Positions 6,141-63,559 of a stretch of DNA of 64,000 nt are shown piece by piece. Origin of the DNA: Atopsyche davidsoni (lineage: Eukaryota; Arthropoda; Insecta; Trichoptera; Hydrobiosidae); assembly GCA_022113835.1 (NCBI GenBank), contig JAILWY010000012.1:7130001-7194000 (forward strand), in the 5' to 3' direction. Under the pieces are notes generated by a model. That model was not told the DNA's origin. It did not search any database and was given only the letters and a program-made list of their open reading frames with translations. Numbering within the stretch: the stretch's first letter is position 1; every line of letters starts with the position of its first letter. Position numbers and translations under genes: made by a program.

Positions 6141-9100
6141 GTAAGTAATTCAGTTATTAAAAATATATTATACATCACCACTTGACACATTGCTTACTTT
6201 TTATCGATCGATAACTTAGTCCTATCTTGGCATAATTAGAAAAAAATATCCGGTCATGTTATTTATATGTAAATCAAACGCCCTTGTTTTTTATTTTTAG
6301 TGTGTCATGGAGTGCGTCGGGAGGAAGAAGCAGTTGGTAAGGAAAACACTTTATTGTTTACTGTAATTTTAAATTTTATACACCAAAGATAGTTGTTTCT
6401 GCATTTAAAAAAATATATAATAGGAGACTTATAGTTTACATGCTACATAAAATAAAATCATTGAAAGACATATTATAAATCTTGCTACAGTTAACGGTTT
6501 TATTTTTTACAATTGTATACAATATTTTGTTTGGAACAAACTATAAATGCATGCTTGTTCAAGATTTTGTTGAAAATGTGGATTATTGAAATTATGAACG
6601 TTTTTTTGTCATTAATTGTTATAGTATATTTTATTCGTATGAGTGAAAATACTAACAACGTTTCTAGAGACATACAAAAATATAATTTTGATAAACACTG
6701 CAGTACATAATTAGTATAAAAATATATTATTTATTTGAATCACTCTGGAAGCAAATAGTCTACGGCTCATTAGACGGATAATTCGCTACTCAAACCCGAG
6801 CGTCAAATACACAGCACCTCAGCCGCAGAGCACACAGCGGGCGTGGCGTGCGCCGGGCGGCCGGGACAAACAAGCCGGCGGTGAGCTGCATCATACACGG
6901 GCTTGTTTATTGTTTACTTCTCGCCACGGTCGCGGCGACTCGCCGGCCGGGGAACCGTTAAGTCCTTAATAGCCCTCACGTCTGGCTCGGACACTTAGCA
7001 CCCAAGGCTGATTCCATCAGCACCGGCGTGATCGTTGCAACGGAGAGGAAGAGTGACGTCACGAGGTCCTCTCTTCCTTGCATGTACTTTGCATGTTATA
7101 TTAATACGTACGTCTTACCCATTGCGTATGTGTTTACCAGATGCGTATTTATTACCCATTTCGGGTTTATCATATTAATATTATAAATATTGGTTGGCCT
7201 GGGCACATTGGTTCATATGTAGAGTATGATTGTTAAAAATTCTCGATAAAACGGAAGTGATTCGTTAGTACAAGGGTTAGTACACCGACCATGTAAGCCA
7301 GGGGATGTGGGTTCATATCCCACACAAATCACGATGATCCTTTCCTCAGTCACTGATCAGTTCCTTTAAATCATCTTCTATGTATGAACTAATGTGCCTA
7401 ATCATATTAGTAATTATATTAATACGACACGTGGAATCGTATAATCAGCCCACACACGTAGAAATACAATTGACTACCAATCTATAATTATCCAATACTG
7501 GTAGGATGTTTATATTATAGTTTTTTCTGCGTTATTAGTTTCTTACTATTTGATTTATTTCACTATTATTTATATTACTGCAGTAGTCCCGGGGACCCAC
7601 TACACTATTTTCCCCTTAAAAAAACCATGATCACTGGTTCAGTATGAGTATATTCCCAGCAAAATGATCGCCAACCTCCTTTGAGAAGAGACACTTGATG
7701 AATAAGAAGTAGACTTAAACTCCCATTTAAATTTAATTAGCTTTTTTTTAACAATTAATTCACTGAAATTGTTGTCATACGATTTAATTATATATTTATT
7801 TCATGAATTTATACTTTAATATTATATGTATTCAAAACAGTTAATATATTCAATATTTTTACAATTAGAAGTCGATTATAAATATGCTTTCAAAACCTGA
7901 ACGGGAAGTCCGGATGTCATAAAATGCCCGCCATTATTCTGTCTGCCGAAATATGGAAATTCTCTGAGCAATCTGTAAAAATAAAAGAGGATTCGTTCAG
8001 AAAAAAAAACAGAATTTATAATATATTCCGCAATCAGGCAATGTTCATCAACTTTACCACGCACGCCAATGTAAACATAACAATCAAAAATGCAAATGTA
8101 AGCTCTGTTTGGCTTATTATTTTGTTTGCCGGTTCTGATTTGCGGGTCGTTTTGAATTATTGATATTTGTTTTCTCTTTAAAGCAAGCCATTTAAAATAT
8201 GACTGTTTTTGTGTCATTTTGCTGAACGCATGATTTTTAAATCGAAATAATCGTAAAAATATCTTGATAGAGTAAGAGATAGAGGCTCACTTCGAGTATC
8301 TGTAACTAGTTTGTAAATGAGAATTGCCTCAAAAAATTGTTCAATAAATATAACAGACATGATTGTTAGGCTTGTCACGTACAAACGGAGTCTAGTCCAG
8401 TACTCCCCAACTATGGTACTAGGAATTTTTCATAAAAGAAAACATCTTACAACAACAAAAAAAACACTTAGTTATCAAAATTATTTTTTTGAAATTGTAT
8501 TTAGGCATCATTTCTGTCAACCAAAGTATTTTTATGTGAATCGAAGTTTTATTGTTAACAACGGTATAATAAATTAGTACTATGTAGTTAAGAGAGAAAA
8601 AAAACATGGAAATGATTCAAACTTATTGATTCATTAAAAAATCATATTGACTTAGTTCGTATCAATTAAAGTTAAGGCTGTAACATGCTATGATAATCAC
8701 AAATTTATTTAGTCATTTGAATTTCAACAAGAATAGCAAACAAATTATACGTTCAGAACAAATACATTTTAACGGGAAAAATTAATGCAATAACAAATCA
8801 CATCTGCGATAAAAAACAAACTTGAAAAAGTACAATAAAATATTATTTACTAAAATCATATACCAAACAACGAGAATGAATGATTAAATGAAATTTAAAA
8901 AAATACGCTTATCTAATTGTTGATTATTAGCTAAATTAGTTTTACATCGATTGCTTTAATTATAATTCACAAATACTGAGAGTAAATAAGCCAATTGATA
9001 GCTACATTTAAATAATTGAGAAACTACTGTAATATTTCAATTATATTTTTTAAGTCAACTTTTTCTGAACTACTTTCAAACACACAATAGCATTCTGAGG

Positions 9101-12208: not shown

Positions 12209-12436
12209 GACTCGTCAACGTTACTTCTACTAATACTGTCCAGTGATTCTGAACAAAGTCACAATGAAGAAGTGGATTGGTCAGAGAATGATAATCCTCC
12301 AATTATTGAACAATTTTTAGGACAAAGTGGTGTTGTTGGGATGCCAGGCAATCCGCAAAGTGTGTATGAAGTGGTTCAACTTTTTACAGAAAACGATTTA
12401 TTTGACTACATGCAAATCAAAGAGTGTATAGAGTAG
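12209..12436 (+). pseudogene. piggyBac-like transposase, N-terminal remnant
   Basis: This open frame of about 75 codons has no clear ATG and stops at TAG (12434-12436). It reads SSDSEQSHNEEVDWSEND, then FLGQSGVVGMPGNPQSVYE and VVQLFTENDLFDYM. The acidic Ser-rich start, the GxSG-type linker and the lF-T-E-d-lfd- helix match the N-terminus of piggyBac/PGBD transposases, which are normally 500-600 residues. Everything after the helix, including the catalytic aspartates, is missing. The frame runs into the internal repeats. Confidence 0.65.
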
Positions 12437-13074
12437 ATTTCACACGTGCAATTTTACGCGAATTTCGTCCGCTTCGCACATCAGTTTTGTCAATTTGGTT
12501 ACCCGCTTAAAATATAAATATAATATAAGCTATTGTGTAACAATAACATTTAATTTATCAACAAAAATCTCATAATTAACTCGGAGTTGCTAGGCGGAAG
12601 AAAAAGTGCTAATCAAAGAGTGTATAGACTAAATTTCGCACGCGCAATTTTACGCGAATTTTGCCCGCTACGCACATCAGTTTAGTCAATTTGGTTACCC
12701 GCCTAGCTATTGTGTCACAATAACATTAATTTAATAACAAAAACCTCATAATTAACTCGGAGTTGCTAGACGGTAGAAAAAAAATCAAAAAGTGCAAATC
12801 AAAGAGTGTACAGACTAGATTTCGCACGCGCAATTTTACGCGAATTTTGCCCGCTACGCACATCAGTTTAATATTTTTGAATAAAATACTTGAGTGATTT
12901 TCCCCATTTTCGTTTTTATTAGTGACCGGTTTTGCCAACATTCACGAACATGTGGAAAATCACTCAAGTATTTTATTCAAAAATATTAAAATGGAATTCC
13001 ACCAAGTACTCTCTGTCAAAAATATTGAATTTCTTCACATCAGTTTAGTCAATTTGGTACCCGCCTAAAGTGTG
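12414..13074 (+). repeat. Three direct repeats inside the piggyBac-like element
   Basis: Units start near 12414, 12611 and 12796, each opening AATCAAAGAGTGTA and containing ACGCGAATTT, ACATCAGTTT and GTCAATTTGGT. Unit spacing is about 197 and 185 bp. Each unit resembles the element's 3' end (GGTTACCCGCCT), as if the terminal region had been duplicated inward. Confidence 0.8.
12871..13035 (-). mobile_element. Hammerhead-like foldback family, copy 1 (nested)
   Basis: Inserted in the third piggyBac repeat with a perfect 12-bp target duplication CACATCAGTTTA (12859-12870 and 13036-13047). Arms of about 42 bp (AATACTTGAGTGATTTTCC and its complement) flank a shortened centre with GTGACCGGTTTTGCCAAC. 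The tail TGGAATTCCACCAAGTACTC follows. The stem II partner is lost, so no ribozyme fold is possible in this copy. Confidence 0.85.
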
Positions 13075-13096: not shown

Positions 13097-13290
13097 ATGT
13101 TGGCGATACATTGCCGATATTTCATCTGCTTGCGCCTACTACGTGAGCCCGCCTCGGCGACCTCCTCGCCGCCTGTTAGCGCGCTGACCCGCCCGGTGAG
13201 CGATGGGTCCCTCGGGGCCGGACGTATATACGGCCAGCCGGTACCGCTTCGTCTTCATCACCTCCCGCCACCCCAGCAAGAACGCAGTTG
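13097..13290 (+). other. GC-rich island with coding-like third-position bias
   Basis: The island lies just after the piggyBac-like element. One frame (13097-13291, MLAIHCRYFICLRLLREP) runs to a GTGAGC donor at 13198. A second frame from an ATG at 13202 reads GPDVYTASRYRFVFITSRHP with almost every codon ending in G or C, like the OBP exons. The two frames do not join simply. It could be an exon remnant or only a CpG island. Confidence 0.3.
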
Positions 13291-16969: not shown

Positions 16970-17091
16970 TGAAATTATTTGCTTAACTAGTTTCGACCCA
17001 ATGACCGGGTCATCATCAGACACATGACTAAACTAAGTTTAGTGATGATGACCCGGTCATTGGGTCGAAACTAGTTAAGCATATTATTTCA
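16970..17091 (-). mobile_element. Foldback repeat with complete hammerhead-like core
   Basis: Two 49-bp inverted arms (16970-17018, 17043-17091; about three mismatches) flank a 24-nt loop. On the minus strand the left arm reads CTGATGA (17019-17013), then a stem GACCC/GGGTC closing a 7-nt loop, GAAA, and the palindrome ACTAGT followed by T. This is the order of the hammerhead core: C3-A9, stem II, G12-A14, a very short stem III and the cleavage base. One extra U sits before stem II, and stem I pairing is not evident. The right arm (plus strand) has GTGATGA instead of CTGATGA. Similar minimal hammerheads are known in Penelope-like elements and retrozymes; activity here is inference. Confidence 0.6.
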
Positions 17092-17439: not shown

Positions 17440-18480
17440 ATCTTTGTTTGATGAAGAGGGCTAGAATTGAAATTTACTAAAATATGAGATGTATTCGAAG
17501 ATAATTATCATATACCTATAAAGTATACATTACAATATACAAATAAAGCCTATTTTATAAATTACAATAATACAAACATGTCGTATTATTTTCATGTTGT
17601 AATTAAACACAAAATCTCACTGTCAAATAAATATATTGAATTATTAAACAAACATGAAAACATTTCACTGGCAATAGCCGCAACGTACGAAAGTTATTAT
17701 ATAAATATAAAACAGTAACTTGATTAAGCTTTAAATCATTTATACCTTAAACATATATTTTGAACATTAATATCGATTTAAAAATAAAAAATATCTTTGA
17801 TAATTTTTTGTGGTATAATTTAAAAAATATAAACAAACTTTACTATCAATTTCATAGCAAAATTAAAAATAATTTGTGTCGCCAACACCTCACGTAAACT
17901 GTGAAAATCTCCAGGACATCAATCACCTCCTCTCCCATCATAAAACCCGGTTTTAATAACATGTCATTCGGGGGCTGATTTTTTAAAATAATTTGTTAAA
18001 GATATTATAATGTGATTGTGTTACGTCGCGTGTAATTTTAAAAGTATTTTATCTGTCAAAATCGCTTTGCGCACCAAGAGAGCGAGTTTCTTAATTCGTT
18101 TAAAATTCCATACAAGTACACGAAGATAAAATGTTAAATCAATATATTTTTAAAAACAAAGATACGAGAAATGAATTTTTATTTATGTTCATTTATTTAT
18201 TTTTGCCTCTTTAGTTATAAATTAACGTGACAAATGTCAGGGTGCTATTAAAATAATAACTAGCATTTTTATAAAAGTTGGTTATAAATTAAATTAAAGC
18301 GTTTTTAAAAAACCGAAGGCTTAATAAAAGGCTGGTTGATAATATATGTTGAAATTATATACACAATAAACAACCAATACTCCAAAATTGTATGGTATTT
18401 GATATTTTAATATATTTTTAAATGCTTTGAGTCAGTCAAAAATCAACCATCAAGCCAAGGATAATTTTTCCTTCAATATT
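17440..18480. other. AT-rich DNA, nothing recognised
   Basis: Very AT-rich with no frame, repeat or island of note. Confidence 0.6.
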
Positions 18481-18484
18481 TTAA

Positions 18485-18621
18485 ATATAATAAAATACTT
18501 GAGTGATATTTCTATATGTTCATTTTTATTGGTGACCTTTTTCTCCAAAATATCACGTTGGCGTTATCAAACTGAGTATTTTATTTAAAATGGAATTCCA
18601 GCAAGTACTCTCTGTCTTTAC
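18485..18621 (-). mobile_element. Hammerhead-like foldback family, copy 2 (degenerate)
   Basis: Shares AAAATACTTGAGTGAT, TTTTTATTGGTGACC, GTTGGCGTTATCAAACTGAG and TGGAATTCCAGCAAGTACTC with the other copies. The central TTATCAA (minus-strand UUGAUAA) is kept, but GAAACCGGTC is changed to GAAAAAGGTC and stem II is damaged. A possible 8-bp duplication TATTTTAA (18477, 18622) is low complexity. Confidence 0.75.
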
Positions 18622-24625: not shown

Positions 24626-24641
24626 TGATATTATTAATAAT

Positions 24642-24840
24642 AAATTCAATATTTTTGACAGAGAGTACTTGGTGGAATTCCATTTTAATATTTTTGAGTA
24701 AAATACTTGAGTGATTTTCCACATGTTCGTTTTTATTTGTGACCGGTTTCGCCAACCTTTCACCTTGGCGAAATAAACAATCACGTCACAAATAAAAACG
24801 AACATGTGGAAAATCACTCAAGTATTTTACTCAAAAATAC
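24642..24840. mobile_element. Hammerhead-like foldback family, copy 3
   Basis: Begins AAATTCAATATTTTTGACAG and GTACTTGGTGGAATTCC, then a perfect 55-bp inverted repeat (24689-24743 with 24785-24839). The 41-nt spacer holds CGGTTTCGCCAACC...TTGGCGAAA. Stem II and the GAAA are visible, but the UUGAUAA box and ACCGGT are disturbed on the right side. No clear target duplication was found. Confidence 0.9.
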
Positions 24841-35653: not shown

Positions 35654-35763
35654 TAACTACCGCCACCGCAGGAACCTATTTTCTTTCAATGCCGCTAATT
35701 TGGTGTGTACGTGAGTCTTGGGTACACATCGAAATTAGTGTAAATTAGACTTTTACAGAAATA

Positions 35764-35924
35764 TTTTTGAATAAAATACTTGAGTGATTTTCCACATTTT
35801 TATTTTTATTAGTGACCGGTTTCGCCAACCTTTCACGTTGGCATTATCAAACAGAGACAAGTATTTTATTCAAAAATATTAAAATGGAATTCCACCAAGT
35901 ACTCTCTAACAAAAATATTGAATT
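35764..35924 (-). mobile_element. Hammerhead-like foldback family, copy 4
   Basis: Flanked by a perfect 13-bp duplication TTTTACAGAAATA (35751-35763, 35925-35937). The minus strand reads TTGATAA, one U, the hairpin GCCAAC/GTTGGC with a GTGAAAG loop, GAAA, then ACCGGT and C. The right arm is short (AAGTATTTTATTCAAAAATA), followed by the shared tail TGGAATTCCACCAAGTACTC. Confidence 0.85.
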
Positions 35925-36529
35925 TTTTACAGAAATAATAGAAGTGTAAAATTATTCCAACAAACTTTTTTCAAATATTTAAGTGTGTTTTTATTCTTTA
36001 AAAATATAAATAATTCTGATATATATTTTAAAGAAACTCTTGTTCCACTATCTCAAATTTGTTTGATATGGTAAATAAAACTACAATATTTTGAATATTA
36101 AATCAGAAAGGTCTACTTTTTAGAGGCATGCAATGCCTCGCATGCGTTCCAATATGAATTCATTTTCGATAAATTTTATTACTTCAAATTGCCAAATAAT
36201 TTATGACGAATTAAATATTCATCGTGCTAAAATAAAAAAAAAGTCACAGCTGCTGCCACCGTGCTTTTTTCTAACTTAACATTATTTAATACGGTATTAT
36301 TATTAGATAAAATAAATGCCTAAAAATTAGGACTAACTGCTAAACTTTTACTAACACTGAAAATTTTGAGTGCATTTGAAACCCAATCTGGTTCAAAGAG
36401 CGAAAAAAAACGAGCGGAAGAAATGAAAATAACACAGCGTCAATTTTACATAGCCGCAAAGAGGAAATATAATCACGAGTCTCCAAGTTTTATCACGCAG
36501 TTGGGTACAATTTTGAATATTGCCTTCAA

Positions 36530-40095: not shown

Positions 40096-40248
40096 GAGAT
40101 GATTAATTGCGAATGGTTAATTTGTATTGTAACTTCCTAAGTACATACACTCGAGTTACATACAAAACTACGCATTTAGTAAATTGGAATATTGAATACT
40201 TGAGTTTACTACTTGTATTAATTATAATGTAAGTATGTTGTATAACTA

Positions 40249-40525
40249 TTACTAATATGATTAGGCATATTAGTTCAAACATAGAAGACGATTTAAAGAA
40301 ACTCTCAGAAAAATATCATCGTGATTTGTGTGGGATTTGAACCCACATCTCCTGGCTTACATGGCCGGTGTACTAACCCTTGTACTAACGAATCACTTCC
40401 GTTTATCGAGAATTTTTAACAATCATACTCTACATATGAACCAATGTGCCCAGGCCAATATTTTTCTGAGAATTTCTTTAAATCATCTTCTATGTATGAA
40501 CTAATGTGCCTAATCATATTAGTAA
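40249..40525 (-). mobile_element. tRNA-SINE foldback, copy 2
   Basis: Two 67-bp inverted arms (40249-40315, 40459-40525; several mismatches) containing CTAATATGATTAGGCA and ATTTAAAGAAA...CTCAGAAAAATA enclose a 143-nt centre. The centre holds a 76-nt tRNA-like domain and a spacer shared with the 7.1-kb copy. The tail ATAAATACGCATCTGATTG follows to about 40570. Confidence 0.8.
40321..40396 (-). pseudogene. tRNA-like domain of SINE copy 2
   Basis: On the minus strand: the acceptor pair GTGATTC/AAATCAC, D arm GTACAAGGGTTAGTAC, anticodon arm CCGGC-CATGTAA-GCCAG (one mismatch) and T arm GTGGGTTCAAATCCCAC with a good B box. It is closest to a threonine TGT tRNA, but the base before the anticodon is A instead of T. 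Confidence 0.7.
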
Positions 40526-40579
40526 TAATCTAATAAACCCGTAATAGGTAATAAATACGCATCTGATTGACGTTTAATC

Positions 40580-61559: not shown

Positions 61560-62270
61560 CCTTCTCTTAAGAAAAGTCATCTTAAGATGTCTTTTAAAAT
61601 ATCATTTTCAAGAGTCATGATGTCGTGCAATACCCATCTAGAGCTCTACATAATGTATAGAATAACAAGATGCCAAGAAAATCAAGATATAAAAGTATCC
61701 CCAAATGAAGCGATCCCCACAAAAAAATGTTGAATAAATAAGTTAATTTACAGCAAAGGAAGCACGAAGTCCGTGGCGCTGTAAGCTTTTACAAGCAGCT
61801 AGCAAGGGGTGCCAACAATCCTTCATCCTTCCTATCTTGTACAAATATTCAAATAACTTAGAGTTATGCATTTGGAAATAATTACATATTTTATGGACCA
61901 TCAGCTGTGGGATGCTATACATACTGTTGCTAAAAAATGAGATTTTACGTTTCTTAACCAACGACAGGAGTTTTCTTTCTTTGCGCATTCTGTACAAGAC
62001 TCCCATTTACGACACGGTCAATTCATGGTATTTTAAGGATTCTCCTATATAGTCACATTTTACACGTCTTAATTTTTCGCATAGTAGCCGTCTTGGGTGT
62101 CCAAGCTTTAACTCCATAAAGAAGAACTGAGATGACATAACATTTGGTGAATCTCCAGCGAAGTTTCAGTGTCATATCTCTTGAGAATAGTGCTTTATTA
62201 TAATCAACCAACCCTCGCATACTTGCAAGTGTACCGGCGGCTTCGTAGCAGCCCTGCCCCGCGGCGGGGT
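61560..62270 (-). pseudogene. LINE ORF2 C-terminal fragment, frameshifted
   Basis: From about 62270 the minus strand reads YNKALFSRDMTLKLRWRFTK, then CYVISVLLYGVKAWTPKTAT and MRKI. After a frameshift it continues as LYRMRKERKLLSLVKKRKIS. The YxxSvLLYG...WTpK block and the KKRK block match the 26.6-kb family in order, so this is the same LINE type with more of the region after the reverse transcriptase. Stops and shifts make it inactive. The frame further upstream (to 62595) is not recognisable LINE protein. Confidence 0.8.
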
Positions 62271-62645
62271 GATCGAGCCACATTTTGTTTCCCGTCCTTT
62301 GTTTGTTCAGATCTGCTTTTTCGTCAGCCTTTTGATAAATTGCGCGTCTCCGTTTTTGCCAATGATGTAAACAAGCGAAATCGAAATTTATAACGCTGTA
62401 TCGCTTTATCTGACTGAATTCCTTTGCTCCGGGACTAGTTCTTTGTGTATTTCGTGTTTGATTTCTTTGGTTCCCGCGAAACGTTTTTAGTGTTTCTTTT
62501 GCCACTGACGCAACATTATTCATATTCAAGTTACCTATATGTTTTTTTGGCTTTTTGATATTAAATCGAGAATGTACTATGTAAATAAACAACACTATTA
62601 TTTATTTACATTGATTAACCATGAAAATATATGAATATAAAATTC

Positions 62646-62781
62646 ATGTGATTAAGCATATTTTTTCACACATTGAAAACGATTAAAGAAAAATCTCAGA
62701 AAATATCATCGTGACTTGTGATATTTTCTGAGATTTTTCTTTAATCGTTTTCAATGTGTGAAAAAATATGCTTAATCACAT
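62646..62781. repeat. Perfect 63-bp inverted repeat (SINE-foldback relative)
   Basis: Arms 62646-62708 and 62719-62781 are exact reverse complements, 63 of 63, around the 10-nt loop TCGTGACTTG. ATTAAAGAAAAATCTCAGAA and the loop parallel the arm and start of the tRNA domain (ATCATCGTGATTTGTG) of the 40.3-kb copy. The tail AATAAATACGCATCCTGATT is shared too. The tRNA core is missing. Confidence 0.95.
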
Positions 62782-62984
62782 AAATATACTAATACCTGCA
62801 TGGGTAAATAAATACGCATCCTGATTAACATTAATCTAAAATTAATATAATATAAAATTCATTATATATTTTTCACCGAATGGAGTCCGTCACAAAATAT
62901 TGTGTCTTTACAGCATAATAACAAATTTTACAGACAAATTATTTTTAATGAAGTAATTACATTACCATAAAAGGCATATTACTA

Positions 62985-63210: not shown

Positions 63211-63329
63211 TATTGTACGATCATATTTTTAAGATCTCTGTGATGTTTTAAAAGACGCCATATTTGTATTTATTTCACTGAAAAATGCAAACAAAAAAGC
63301 TTAATTGTAAAAATATTAACTTAATGGTA

Positions 63330-63550
63330 GAGAAATTCAATATTTTTGAGAGAGTACTTGGTGGAATTCCATTTAAATATTTTGGAATAAAATACTTGAG
63401 TGATTTTCCACATTTTTGTTTTTATTAGTGACCGGTTTCGCCAACCTTTCACGTTGGCATTATCAAACATTTGACTCTGTTTGATAATGCCAAAGTGAAA
63501 GGTTGGCGAAACCGGTCACTAATAAAAACAAAAATCTAAAATCAAAAATA
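63330..63550. mobile_element. Hammerhead-like foldback family, copy 5 (best preserved)
   Basis: A 9-bp duplication TTAATGGTA flanks it (63321-63329, 63551-63559). Inverted arms of about 56 bp (63414-63469, 63478-63535) surround an 8-nt loop. On the plus strand the right arm has TTGATAA (63481-63487), stem II GCCAA/TTGGC (63489-63493, 63503-63507), GAAA (63508-63511), palindrome ACCGGT (63511-63516) and C at 63517. The left arm carries the same on the minus strand (63466-63460 for the first box). Confidence 0.9.
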
Positions 63551-63559
63551 TTAATGGTA

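Follow-up and report, generated by a model that had tools for sequence, protein, structure and literature searches.

A foldback insert of Atopsyche davidsoni read as paired leader copies of a Penelope-like element, with a hammerhead-like motif at which most informative templates look uncut

The foldback insert at 63.3 kb in a 64,000-nt stretch of the Atopsyche davidsoni genome (contig JAILWY010000012.1, positions 7,130,001 to 7,194,000; hereafter the window) is, judged by alignment, a head-to-head pair of short leader copies, lacking an open reading frame (ORF), of an autonomous Penelope-like element (PLE) that we call PLE1. As a leader copy of a PLE it is nothing unusual, and it is one among thousands of short PLE1 copies in this genome. 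Its arms carry a hammerhead-like motif, and the starts in a tail-selected sample of other such arms indicate that most informative PLE1 templates look uncleaved at the hammerhead site. Taken as a whole, the data are probably best explained by a PLE1 leader copy made by two-strand priming, with two start sites for reverse transcription (RT), on mostly uncut templates in which a derived hammerhead is a passenger.

The two arms of the insert are inverted repeats of 58 nt (63412-63469 and 63478-63535) that are 98% complementary and separated by a loop of 8 nt. Both contain UUGAUAA-U-GCCAA..UUGGC-GAA-ACCGGU-C, on opposite strands, as a first-pass annotation made from the letters alone had described, and C17 of the right arm is position 63517, the base named there as the last before the cut. 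In the left arm (minus strand) U3 to A9 occupy 63466-63460, the extra U 63459 and the GCCAAC strand of stem II 63458-63453; after the loop GUGAAAG come GUUGGC (63445-63440), GAA (63439-63437), ACCGGU (63436-63431) and C17 (63430), and the predicted cut lies between 63430 and 63429. The right arm (plus strand) has UUGAUAA at 63481-63487, the extra U at 63488, GCCAAA, by which one stem II pair is lost, then GUUGGC at 63502-63507, GAA at 63508-63510, ACCGGU at 63511-63516 and C17. Read by eye, the target-site duplication (TSD) is 9 bp; an automatic search chose AAAAATATTAA instead, which is element sequence, because the right arm carries a deletion. An RNA that includes both arms folds as a single long hairpin (-91.7 kcal/mol, versus -11.0 kcal/mol for the right arm alone). 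The foldback had been thought to supply a second ribozyme copy for a dimer; it supplies none, the opposite arm being a reverse complement. The long hairpin also draws matches from many Rfam microRNA families, but no match reaches the gathering score of its family; we rejected a microRNA precursor and took these matches as an effect of any long perfect hairpin.

The parent element was found at locus L134 (G000:C1:6326100-6330400), which has an intact ORF of 810 codons (L134:1253-3685). Its product, P0001, matches RVT_1 (E=3.9e-11), and the C-terminal region (SGIYKL...YIGQTGRSFNTR) aligns with the GIY-YIG domain of P0012, which has PF01541. There are 431 homologs of P0001; the 120 listed are 27-49% identical, most with PF00078 and some with PF01541, and those among them with a named organism are mostly from insects, four being butterflies or moths. 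The homologs P0002, P0005, P0008 and P0010 begin MEFHQV or MDFRK, MEFHQV being common to PLE1 and P0002, and this supports the start of the PLE1 ORF at ATGGAATTCCACCAAG, which falls inside the 48-nt tail that ends one foldback arm. The hammerhead-like motif lies in the 3' pseudo-long-terminal repeat (pLTR) of L134 and directly upstream of the ORF in L139 and L144. With a PLE-type RT, a C-terminal GIY-YIG region, inverted pLTRs with a single tail, and a TSD, PLE1 is on its sequence a Penelope-like element, the type that had been suspected, and the insert is a leader copy of this autonomous element rather than the separate non-autonomous retrozyme that had also been considered. At least 11 PLE1 copies span residues 1-810 without a stop and are 99-100% identical, so PLE1 has probably moved recently; this and the other counts of intact copies are lower bounds, as 56 of 1001 candidates were scored.

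Two sister families, PLE2 and PLE3, encode proteins 41-42% identical to that of PLE1. Seventeen of the 18 PLE2 copies that span residues 1-802 are free of stops, and four PLE3 copies span residues 6-802. Searches with P0010 and P0098 gave a PLE2-like copy with a stop on contig C20, which has the motif in its 3' flank (L146) and none in its 5' flank (L145), as well as fragments whose flanks are those of PLE3. An old relative of PLE1 (C5:12160369-12161991 and L141; 66% protein identity, 14 stops) has a 3' pLTR that is 89% identical to that of PLE1, with nearly the same motif.

Positions on PLE1 are given as RU coordinates, the reference being L134:1233-4107. A PLE1 insertion consists of two head-to-head arms, a tailed arm that runs to RU 2875 and a tail-less arm that stops near RU 2825. 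This arrangement of one tailed and one tail-less arm was seen in 30/31 scored pairs from the window and L113-L134, and two tails in none of the 31 (the L134 row was scored on a tail copy inside the ORF; the true 3' end of L134 is tailed as well). In the sample selected by the tail that is described below, 0/74 partners were tailed, one row flagged by the script being a neighbouring older element, and 63/74 ended at the inner site. The lengths of the duplicated words that flank the 30 one-tailed pairs have modes at 12 and 13 bp (nine and six pairs). Words of 11-14 bp flank 18 of the 30, one of them (at 63.3 kb) being spurious element sequence, versus 0/30 for mismatched flanks, which give words of 4-10. 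The two arms of L134 were truncated independently: its main arm begins at RU 1, its inverted arm only at RU 1805, and arm starts that differ by hundreds of nucleotides were seen in L117 and L124 as well. Inner junctions vary copy by copy and the ends are asymmetric. At one further locus (L151, C1:1685930-1686560) two PLE1 units, both with a tail, lie in tandem; the start of the first coincides exactly with the predicted cut, RU 2772.

Had the hammerhead cut the RNA beforehand, arms would be expected to begin at RU 2772. The first sample of arms (L113-L132) had been picked by a pattern that spans the cut, and starts were therefore counted anew on a sample selected by the tail. This sample holds 100 exact-match places, 86 on contig C1 and 14 on C2, and thus represents young copies on two of the 80 contigs; 97 places were examined. 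Of the other three, two are copies internal to ORFs, one in L134 and one in a full-length C1 element, and the third is the 3' terminus of this C1 element. It yielded 96 placeable tailed arms, 74 of them with a partner within the stretch. Arm starts are BLAST edges, accurate to a few nucleotides; for seven tailed arms the start was placed at RU 2514 or earlier, and these run up to, or almost up to, an end of the stretch or of the query.

Starts pile up within RU 2720-2737 (29/96 tailed arms and 46/74 partners), with a mode at 2728, the A of TCACTC, a sequence that we take to be initiator-like. Within RU 2770-2774, around the predicted cut, there are 3/96 tailed arms and 0/74 partners. The background over RU 2738-2830 is about three starts per 5 nt for tailed arms and about one for partners, so there is no excess of starts at the cut. 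A start 5' of the cut was found for 61/96 tailed arms and 65/74 partners, and for these the template must have been intact across the cut. As the starts cluster where transcription is presumed to begin and not at the cut, most of the informative templates look uncleaved. The data on arm starts fit both an inactive ribozyme and an active one whose products are not inserted, and do not decide between them.

The motif itself was compared between the three families. It reads GU-UUGAUAA-U-GCCAAC-GUGAAAG-GUUGGC-GAA-ACCGGU-C-ACUAAU in PLE1, CAGUC-UUGAAGA-U-GCCG-UGUU-CGGC-GAA-AGAGCUCU-C-GCUAUA in PLE2 and UGCAU-CUGAUGA-U-GACCU-..-AGGUU-GAA-ACUAGU-A-AUGCA in PLE3. Seven 5' flanks were read: the whole motif is in L139 and L144 (PLE1), L143 (PLE2) and L142 (PLE3), its 3' half only in L135 (PLE2), and none of it in L137 (PLE3) or L145, as expected of 5'-truncated copies. 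U4 lies 90-101 nt upstream of the ORF start in the three families (93 nt in PLE1). Common to all three are U4 G5 A6, A9, the extra U, G12 A13 A14, A15.1 and U16.1. Stem II is paired in each with different letters (the closing pair of PLE3 is G.U), and stem III (ACCGGU, AGAGCUCU and ACUAGU) is loop-less, six or eight letters long, family-specific and self-complementary, as had been noted for the insert. In cofolding, a full stem III is possible only between two RNAs. Freely cofolded, the dimer of PLE1 reaches -29.3 kcal/mol versus -21.0 for two monomers, and that of PLE2 -27.9 versus -17.0, with the stem III duplex formed in both; PLE3 prefers another fold.

Stem II, G12 A13 A14, A15.1-U16.1 and H17 of a hammerhead are present. 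The canonical core C3 U4 G5 A6 N7 G8 A9 is absent from PLE1, and A9 does not adjoin stem II in any of the families, since the extra U, first remarked on in the insert, stands between them in all three. In 74 sampled PLE1 arms, some of them picked by a pattern that partly dictates the columns beyond about RU 2760 on the 3' side, the extra base is U in 73 and C in one. Positions 3 and 8 are U-A in PLE1, U.G in PLE2 and C-G in PLE3, and can pair in all three. Among the 74 arms 72 have U3/A8, one has C3/A8 and one a gap at position 3; U3/A8 is the normal, inherited state of the family, as had been supposed. The further proposal that positions 3 and 8 have co-varied finds no support within PLE1, where U-A is simply inherited; it is between families that the pair has changed. 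The comparison covers three families, and we cannot say from it how many changes lie behind U-A, U.G and C-G. Stem I has 2 bp in PLE1, 1 bp in PLE2 and 5 bp in PLE3. In the 74 arms positions 1.1 and 1.2 are invariant and 1.3 is variable (58 T, 13 A and 3 C), as would be expected if stem I has two pairs, the most that the first-pass annotation had allowed. That annotation had also staked its case on stem II and GAAA being conserved in a consensus of many copies, and both are conserved.

The motif looks like a relative of the minimal hammerheads of PLEs, and hence like a derived PLE hammerhead; we do not file it as a proven hammerhead, because the canonical core and the adjacency of A9 and stem II are lacking. 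A reading of the extra U as part of an AUG start overlapping the ribozyme, as in the PAc element introduced below, was rejected: the ORF start supported by homologs is downstream, and AUG CCA ACG UGA runs into a stop. A further hammerhead-like motif, GUGAAGA-U-GGUCCC..GGGACU-GAAACGUCGG, was seen at L119:6786 on C1 and is perhaps from a fourth PLE family.

The heptamer UUGAUAA alone is not unusual in the window (44 occurrences versus 36.5 expected). The full arrangement of the motif, in contrast, was found in 0/4000 dinucleotide shuffles for each of the three PLE leaders, by which a chance motif is ruled out. A loose descriptor of the motif gave 47 matches in 264 kb, most of which had been chosen for PLE1-type copies, versus seven in a Markov control, and 33 of the 47 are PLE1 copies. 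As the first-pass annotation had noted, UUGAUAA is also present in the copies at 18.5 kb (18564-18570) and 35.8 kb (35844-35850, minus strand); in the former stem II, GAA and ACCGGU are all broken. The PLE3 motif is also found in L138, L142 and L187-L189. Across the host assembly (370.7 Mb, 80 contigs), GCGAAACCGGTCACTAATAAA with up to three mismatches occurs at 13,116 places (6571+6545), versus five (4+1) for the reversed control, and the tail pattern with up to two mismatches at 2437+2430 places versus 0+0.

Searching the Rfam hammerhead models, which had been suggested as a check, gave no match at E<=10 in the window, in two 161-nt stretches or in eight stretches with PLE1-3 leaders. This negative says little, because PLE3 with its canonical core, and PLE2, were missed as well. 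Viral and prokaryote relatives of the motif were also sought: TGATGATG..CGAAACCGGT gave 35 loci and TGATGATG..CGAAACTAGT 69. The longest stem II adjoining the core among these 104 stretches is 5 bp, in one, and we took the matches as chance. A search of viral contigs with P0001 gave no relative.

Two published systems bear on how the foldbacks are made. In Penelope, according to a rotifer study, pLTRs are typically inverted and arranged head to head, one of the two bearing a tail (PMC3846280). PAc, a Poseidon element of Anolis carolinensis, cleaves and extends both target strands; its RT starts internally at two sites, the tail being the sequence between them, unprocessed RNA is the main insertion substrate, and the hammerhead cleaves only with protein present (PMC11167929). 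Two-strand priming is inferred for PLE1 because its layout matches the published Penelope layout and the biochemistry of PAc. PLE1 mRNA would have the A of TCACTC, located 7 nt 5' of position 3, as its first base, and the PLE1 enzyme would cut both target strands about 12 bp apart. Each target end would then serve as primer for copying leader RNA from one or other of the two internal start sites; one target strand would yield the tailed arm and its opposite the tail-less one. The two cDNAs would extend to the 5' end of the RNA or terminate before it, and their joining in head-to-head orientation would create the foldback. Templates would usually be uncut at the hammerhead site. The motif probably descends from a PLE hammerhead and plausibly cleaves only as an RNA dimer or with the help of protein; in foldback DNA it would be a passenger. 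A stricter version, which we put forward tentatively and hold to be rather unlikely, is a concerted reaction in which an enzyme dimer with a stagger of about 12 bp would obligatorily use site 1 and site 2 on uncleaved leader RNA and so leave exactly one tail, and in which the hammerhead, if it acts, would be an off-switch that destroys template competence rather than a maturation step.

A number of observations weigh against this reading of the foldbacks and their templates. The start sites of PAc are alike on both strands (PMC11167929), which disfavours a strict rule of one site per strand. Starts of tailed arms are widely spread, only 29/96 being in the pile-up, and the first unit of L151 starts at the cut. 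The starts that lie 3' of the cut (35/96 tailed arms and 9/74 partners) are scattered and are uninformative on template cutting. The transcription start at RU 2728 is placed by arm ends and TCACTC rather than by RNA, and the missing ends at the cut could instead mean that cleaved RNA is a poor template. P0001 itself has no GIY-YIG Pfam match up to E=1. Finally, one pair of the 31 is tail-free (L131:9318; old, 79% identical), and of the 30 one-tailed pairs four have no TSD word and seven have words of 6-8.

Concerning the motif, we give slightly less than an even chance to its being the fossil of a working PLE hammerhead, non-catalytic in PLE1, in a leader kept for protein binding, RT start or translation. 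The weak stem I, U3/A8, the extra U and the mostly uncleaved templates all suit a fossil, and hammerhead mutants had no effect on PAc insertion in vitro (PMC11167929). However, core, extra U, paired stem II and self-complementary stem III are kept in three divergent families whose leaders otherwise align poorly, and the 3/8 pair stays pairable in the three families compared. The retention of UGANNA, GAA, A15.1-U16.1, H17 and stem II despite changed stems II and III would be explained if an active dimeric hammerhead with U3-A8 processed PLE1 RNA in vivo, cut RNAs not being inserted and the leader 5' of the cut being needed by the enzyme. The cofolds of PLE1 and PLE2 with a stem III duplex, which lie below two monomers, are in line with this, as is PAc, for which the shortest active 5' truncation is +20 and the cut is at +26, so that cleaved RNA may be a poor template (PMC11167929). 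We nevertheless consider activity in vivo unlikely: stem I has two pairs in PLE1 and one in PLE2, the extra U adjoins stem II, the insertion ends show no signal at the cut, and free cofolding of PLE3, the family with the best stem I, favours a different fold. For PAc, moreover, no hammerhead cleavage was seen unless protein was present, and its cut site coincided with neither the beginning nor the end of any RNA-seq read (PMC11167929).

The foldback form could also have arisen by snap-back self-priming of a single cDNA, or by template switching, instead of two-strand priming. Arkhipova et al. (2013) explained palindromes at the inverted junction of rotifer Penelope by self-priming on an antisense template (PMC3846280), and many short PLE1 copies have arms that start within a few nucleotides of each other, as self-priming would also give; this too counts against two-strand priming. 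Snap-back would, however, copy the tail into both arms, and two-tailed pairs were not seen among the 31 pairs or the 74 partners; the arm starts that differ by hundreds of nucleotides are a further difficulty. We therefore regard self-priming as improbable. Long inverted repeats, TSDs of about 9-13 bp and thousands of copies would likewise suit a foldback or Mutator-like DNA transposon with long terminal inverted repeats and a chance likeness to a hammerhead. This is highly implausible, as the arms are the leader of an element that encodes an RT, the inner junctions vary, the ends are asymmetric, and no shuffle of any leader reproduced the motif. Two-strand priming on mostly uncut templates remains our preferred account. 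The features of the insert are listed in Table 1 together with the other PLE copies in the window.

Table 1. Features of the insert at 63.3 kb and other PLE foldbacks in the window
Feature	Position	Strand	Remarks
PLE1 foldback copy, core lost	12864..13035		12-bp TSD word; tail-less arm 12864-12946 minus, tailed arm 12944-13035 plus
PLE3-type foldback	16970..17091		CUGAUGA-U-GACCC..GGGUC-GAA-ACUAGU; GUGAUGA in one arm
Old PLE1 foldback copy	18472..18616		Arm 78% identical; partial tail; decayed motif with UUGAUAA
PLE1 foldback copy	24638..24839		Minus-strand tailed arm and plus-strand tail-less arm; core with its 5' part replaced
PLE1 foldback copy, intact UUGAUAA motif	35760..35929		Motif on minus strand (UUGAUAA 35844-35850); 13-bp TSD word
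Left target-site duplication	63321..63329	+	TTAATGGTA; read by eye
Tailed arm, PLE1 leader copy	63331..63469	-	RU 2732-2872; inner end at foldback centre
Tail, start of PLE1 ORF	63331..63375	-	ATGGAATTCCACCAAG...; stretch between the two putative RT start sites
Hammerhead-like motif	63430..63466	-	UUGAUAA-U-GCCAAC-GUGAAAG-GUUGGC-GAA-ACCGGU-C, same as PLE1 reference
Tail-less arm	63474..63544	+	RU 2728-2800 (BLAST), then internal deletion; end CAAAAATATT near 63543-63552
Second hammerhead-like motif, other strand	63481..63517	+	One stem II pair broken (GCCAAA)
Right target-site duplication	63551..63559	+	TTAATGGTA; read by eye

Other repeats were seen in the window. A near-perfect inverted repeat at 62642-62785 (67-nt arms, 99%, 10-nt loop) is another foldback, in which inspection by eye showed no hammerhead motif. 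A different repeat occurs twice, in opposite orientation (7138-7417 and 40247-40565), and each copy has a tRNA match that exceeds the Rfam threshold (41.0 bits at 7259-7331, plus; 50.9 bits at 40322-40394, minus); part of this repeat is also present near 62735-62791. At 12411-12891 a 99-nt unit occurs in three copies 186-196 bp apart, the third of which holds the 12.9 kb PLE1 foldback. An open frame of 182 aa at 62053-62601 (minus strand) presumably encodes, from its appearance by eye, the terminal part of a reverse transcriptase from a non-LTR retrotransposon.

The motif class and the altered 3/8 pair were both known before: minimal hammerheads of PLEs have been published, as has, in 2011, U3-A8. 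In the open-licence literature searched we found no report of the one-tail rule or of insertion ends being used to ask about hammerhead cutting. Two points are new and useful, namely the record that the insertions keep of uncleaved templates and the pairing of a tailed with a tail-less arm. Thousands of short insertions in one genome preserve the starts of RNA templates, and most of those sampled cross the predicted cut. In addition, three co-resident PLE families with intact ORFs, in which positions 3 and 8 are U-A, U.G and C-G, offer natural constructs for testing the pair.

Minimal type I PLE hammerheads that cleave as dimers are said to have been described by Cervera and de la Pena in 2014 and by Lunse et al. 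in 2017. According to reviews, PLE pLTRs carry minimal hammerheads without helix III, and PLE1 is like them in its location in the pLTR and in having, as a monomer, no usable stem III (PMC6155905, PMC7761336). Perreault et al. (2011) report several natural hammerheads in which covariation has given U at position 3 and A at position 8, and describe a palindromic stem III and dimers for Aedes repeats; PLE1 differs from their U3-A8 hammerheads in the extra U before stem II and the loop-less stem III (PMC3088659). Metazoan retrozymes resemble the PLE1 foldbacks in being small repeats with type I hammerheads and low GC that co-occur with PLEs (PMC7229834). They are, however, tandem direct repeats that spread as circular RNA, whereas PLE1 copies are head-to-head foldbacks of a PLE leader (PMC7229834). 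The insert was not classed as a retrozyme: instead of tandem direct non-coding repeats it has inverted arms, from the leader of a coding element.

The Penelope element of Adineta vaga is like PLE1 in its one-sided tail, in a pLTR and tail that hold the first codons of the ORF, in palindromes at the junction and in short TSDs (PMC3846280). Its TSDs are 8-10 bp, whereas the PLE1 words are mostly 12-13 bp (PMC3846280). PLE1 is also unlike it, as there described, in consisting mostly of short leader foldbacks, in its thousands of copies and in the one-tail state of 30/31 pairs. PAc and PLE1 are alike in an RT/GIY-YIG protein and a hammerhead motif at the border of pLTR and ORF, and PLE1 presumably also shares with PAc an internal RT start at two sites that bound the tail and uncut RNA as the main substrate. 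They differ in that the ORF of PAc begins at stem II of a hammerhead with C3/G8, whereas the PLE1 ORF begins 93 nt downstream of U4 and its motif has U3/A8.
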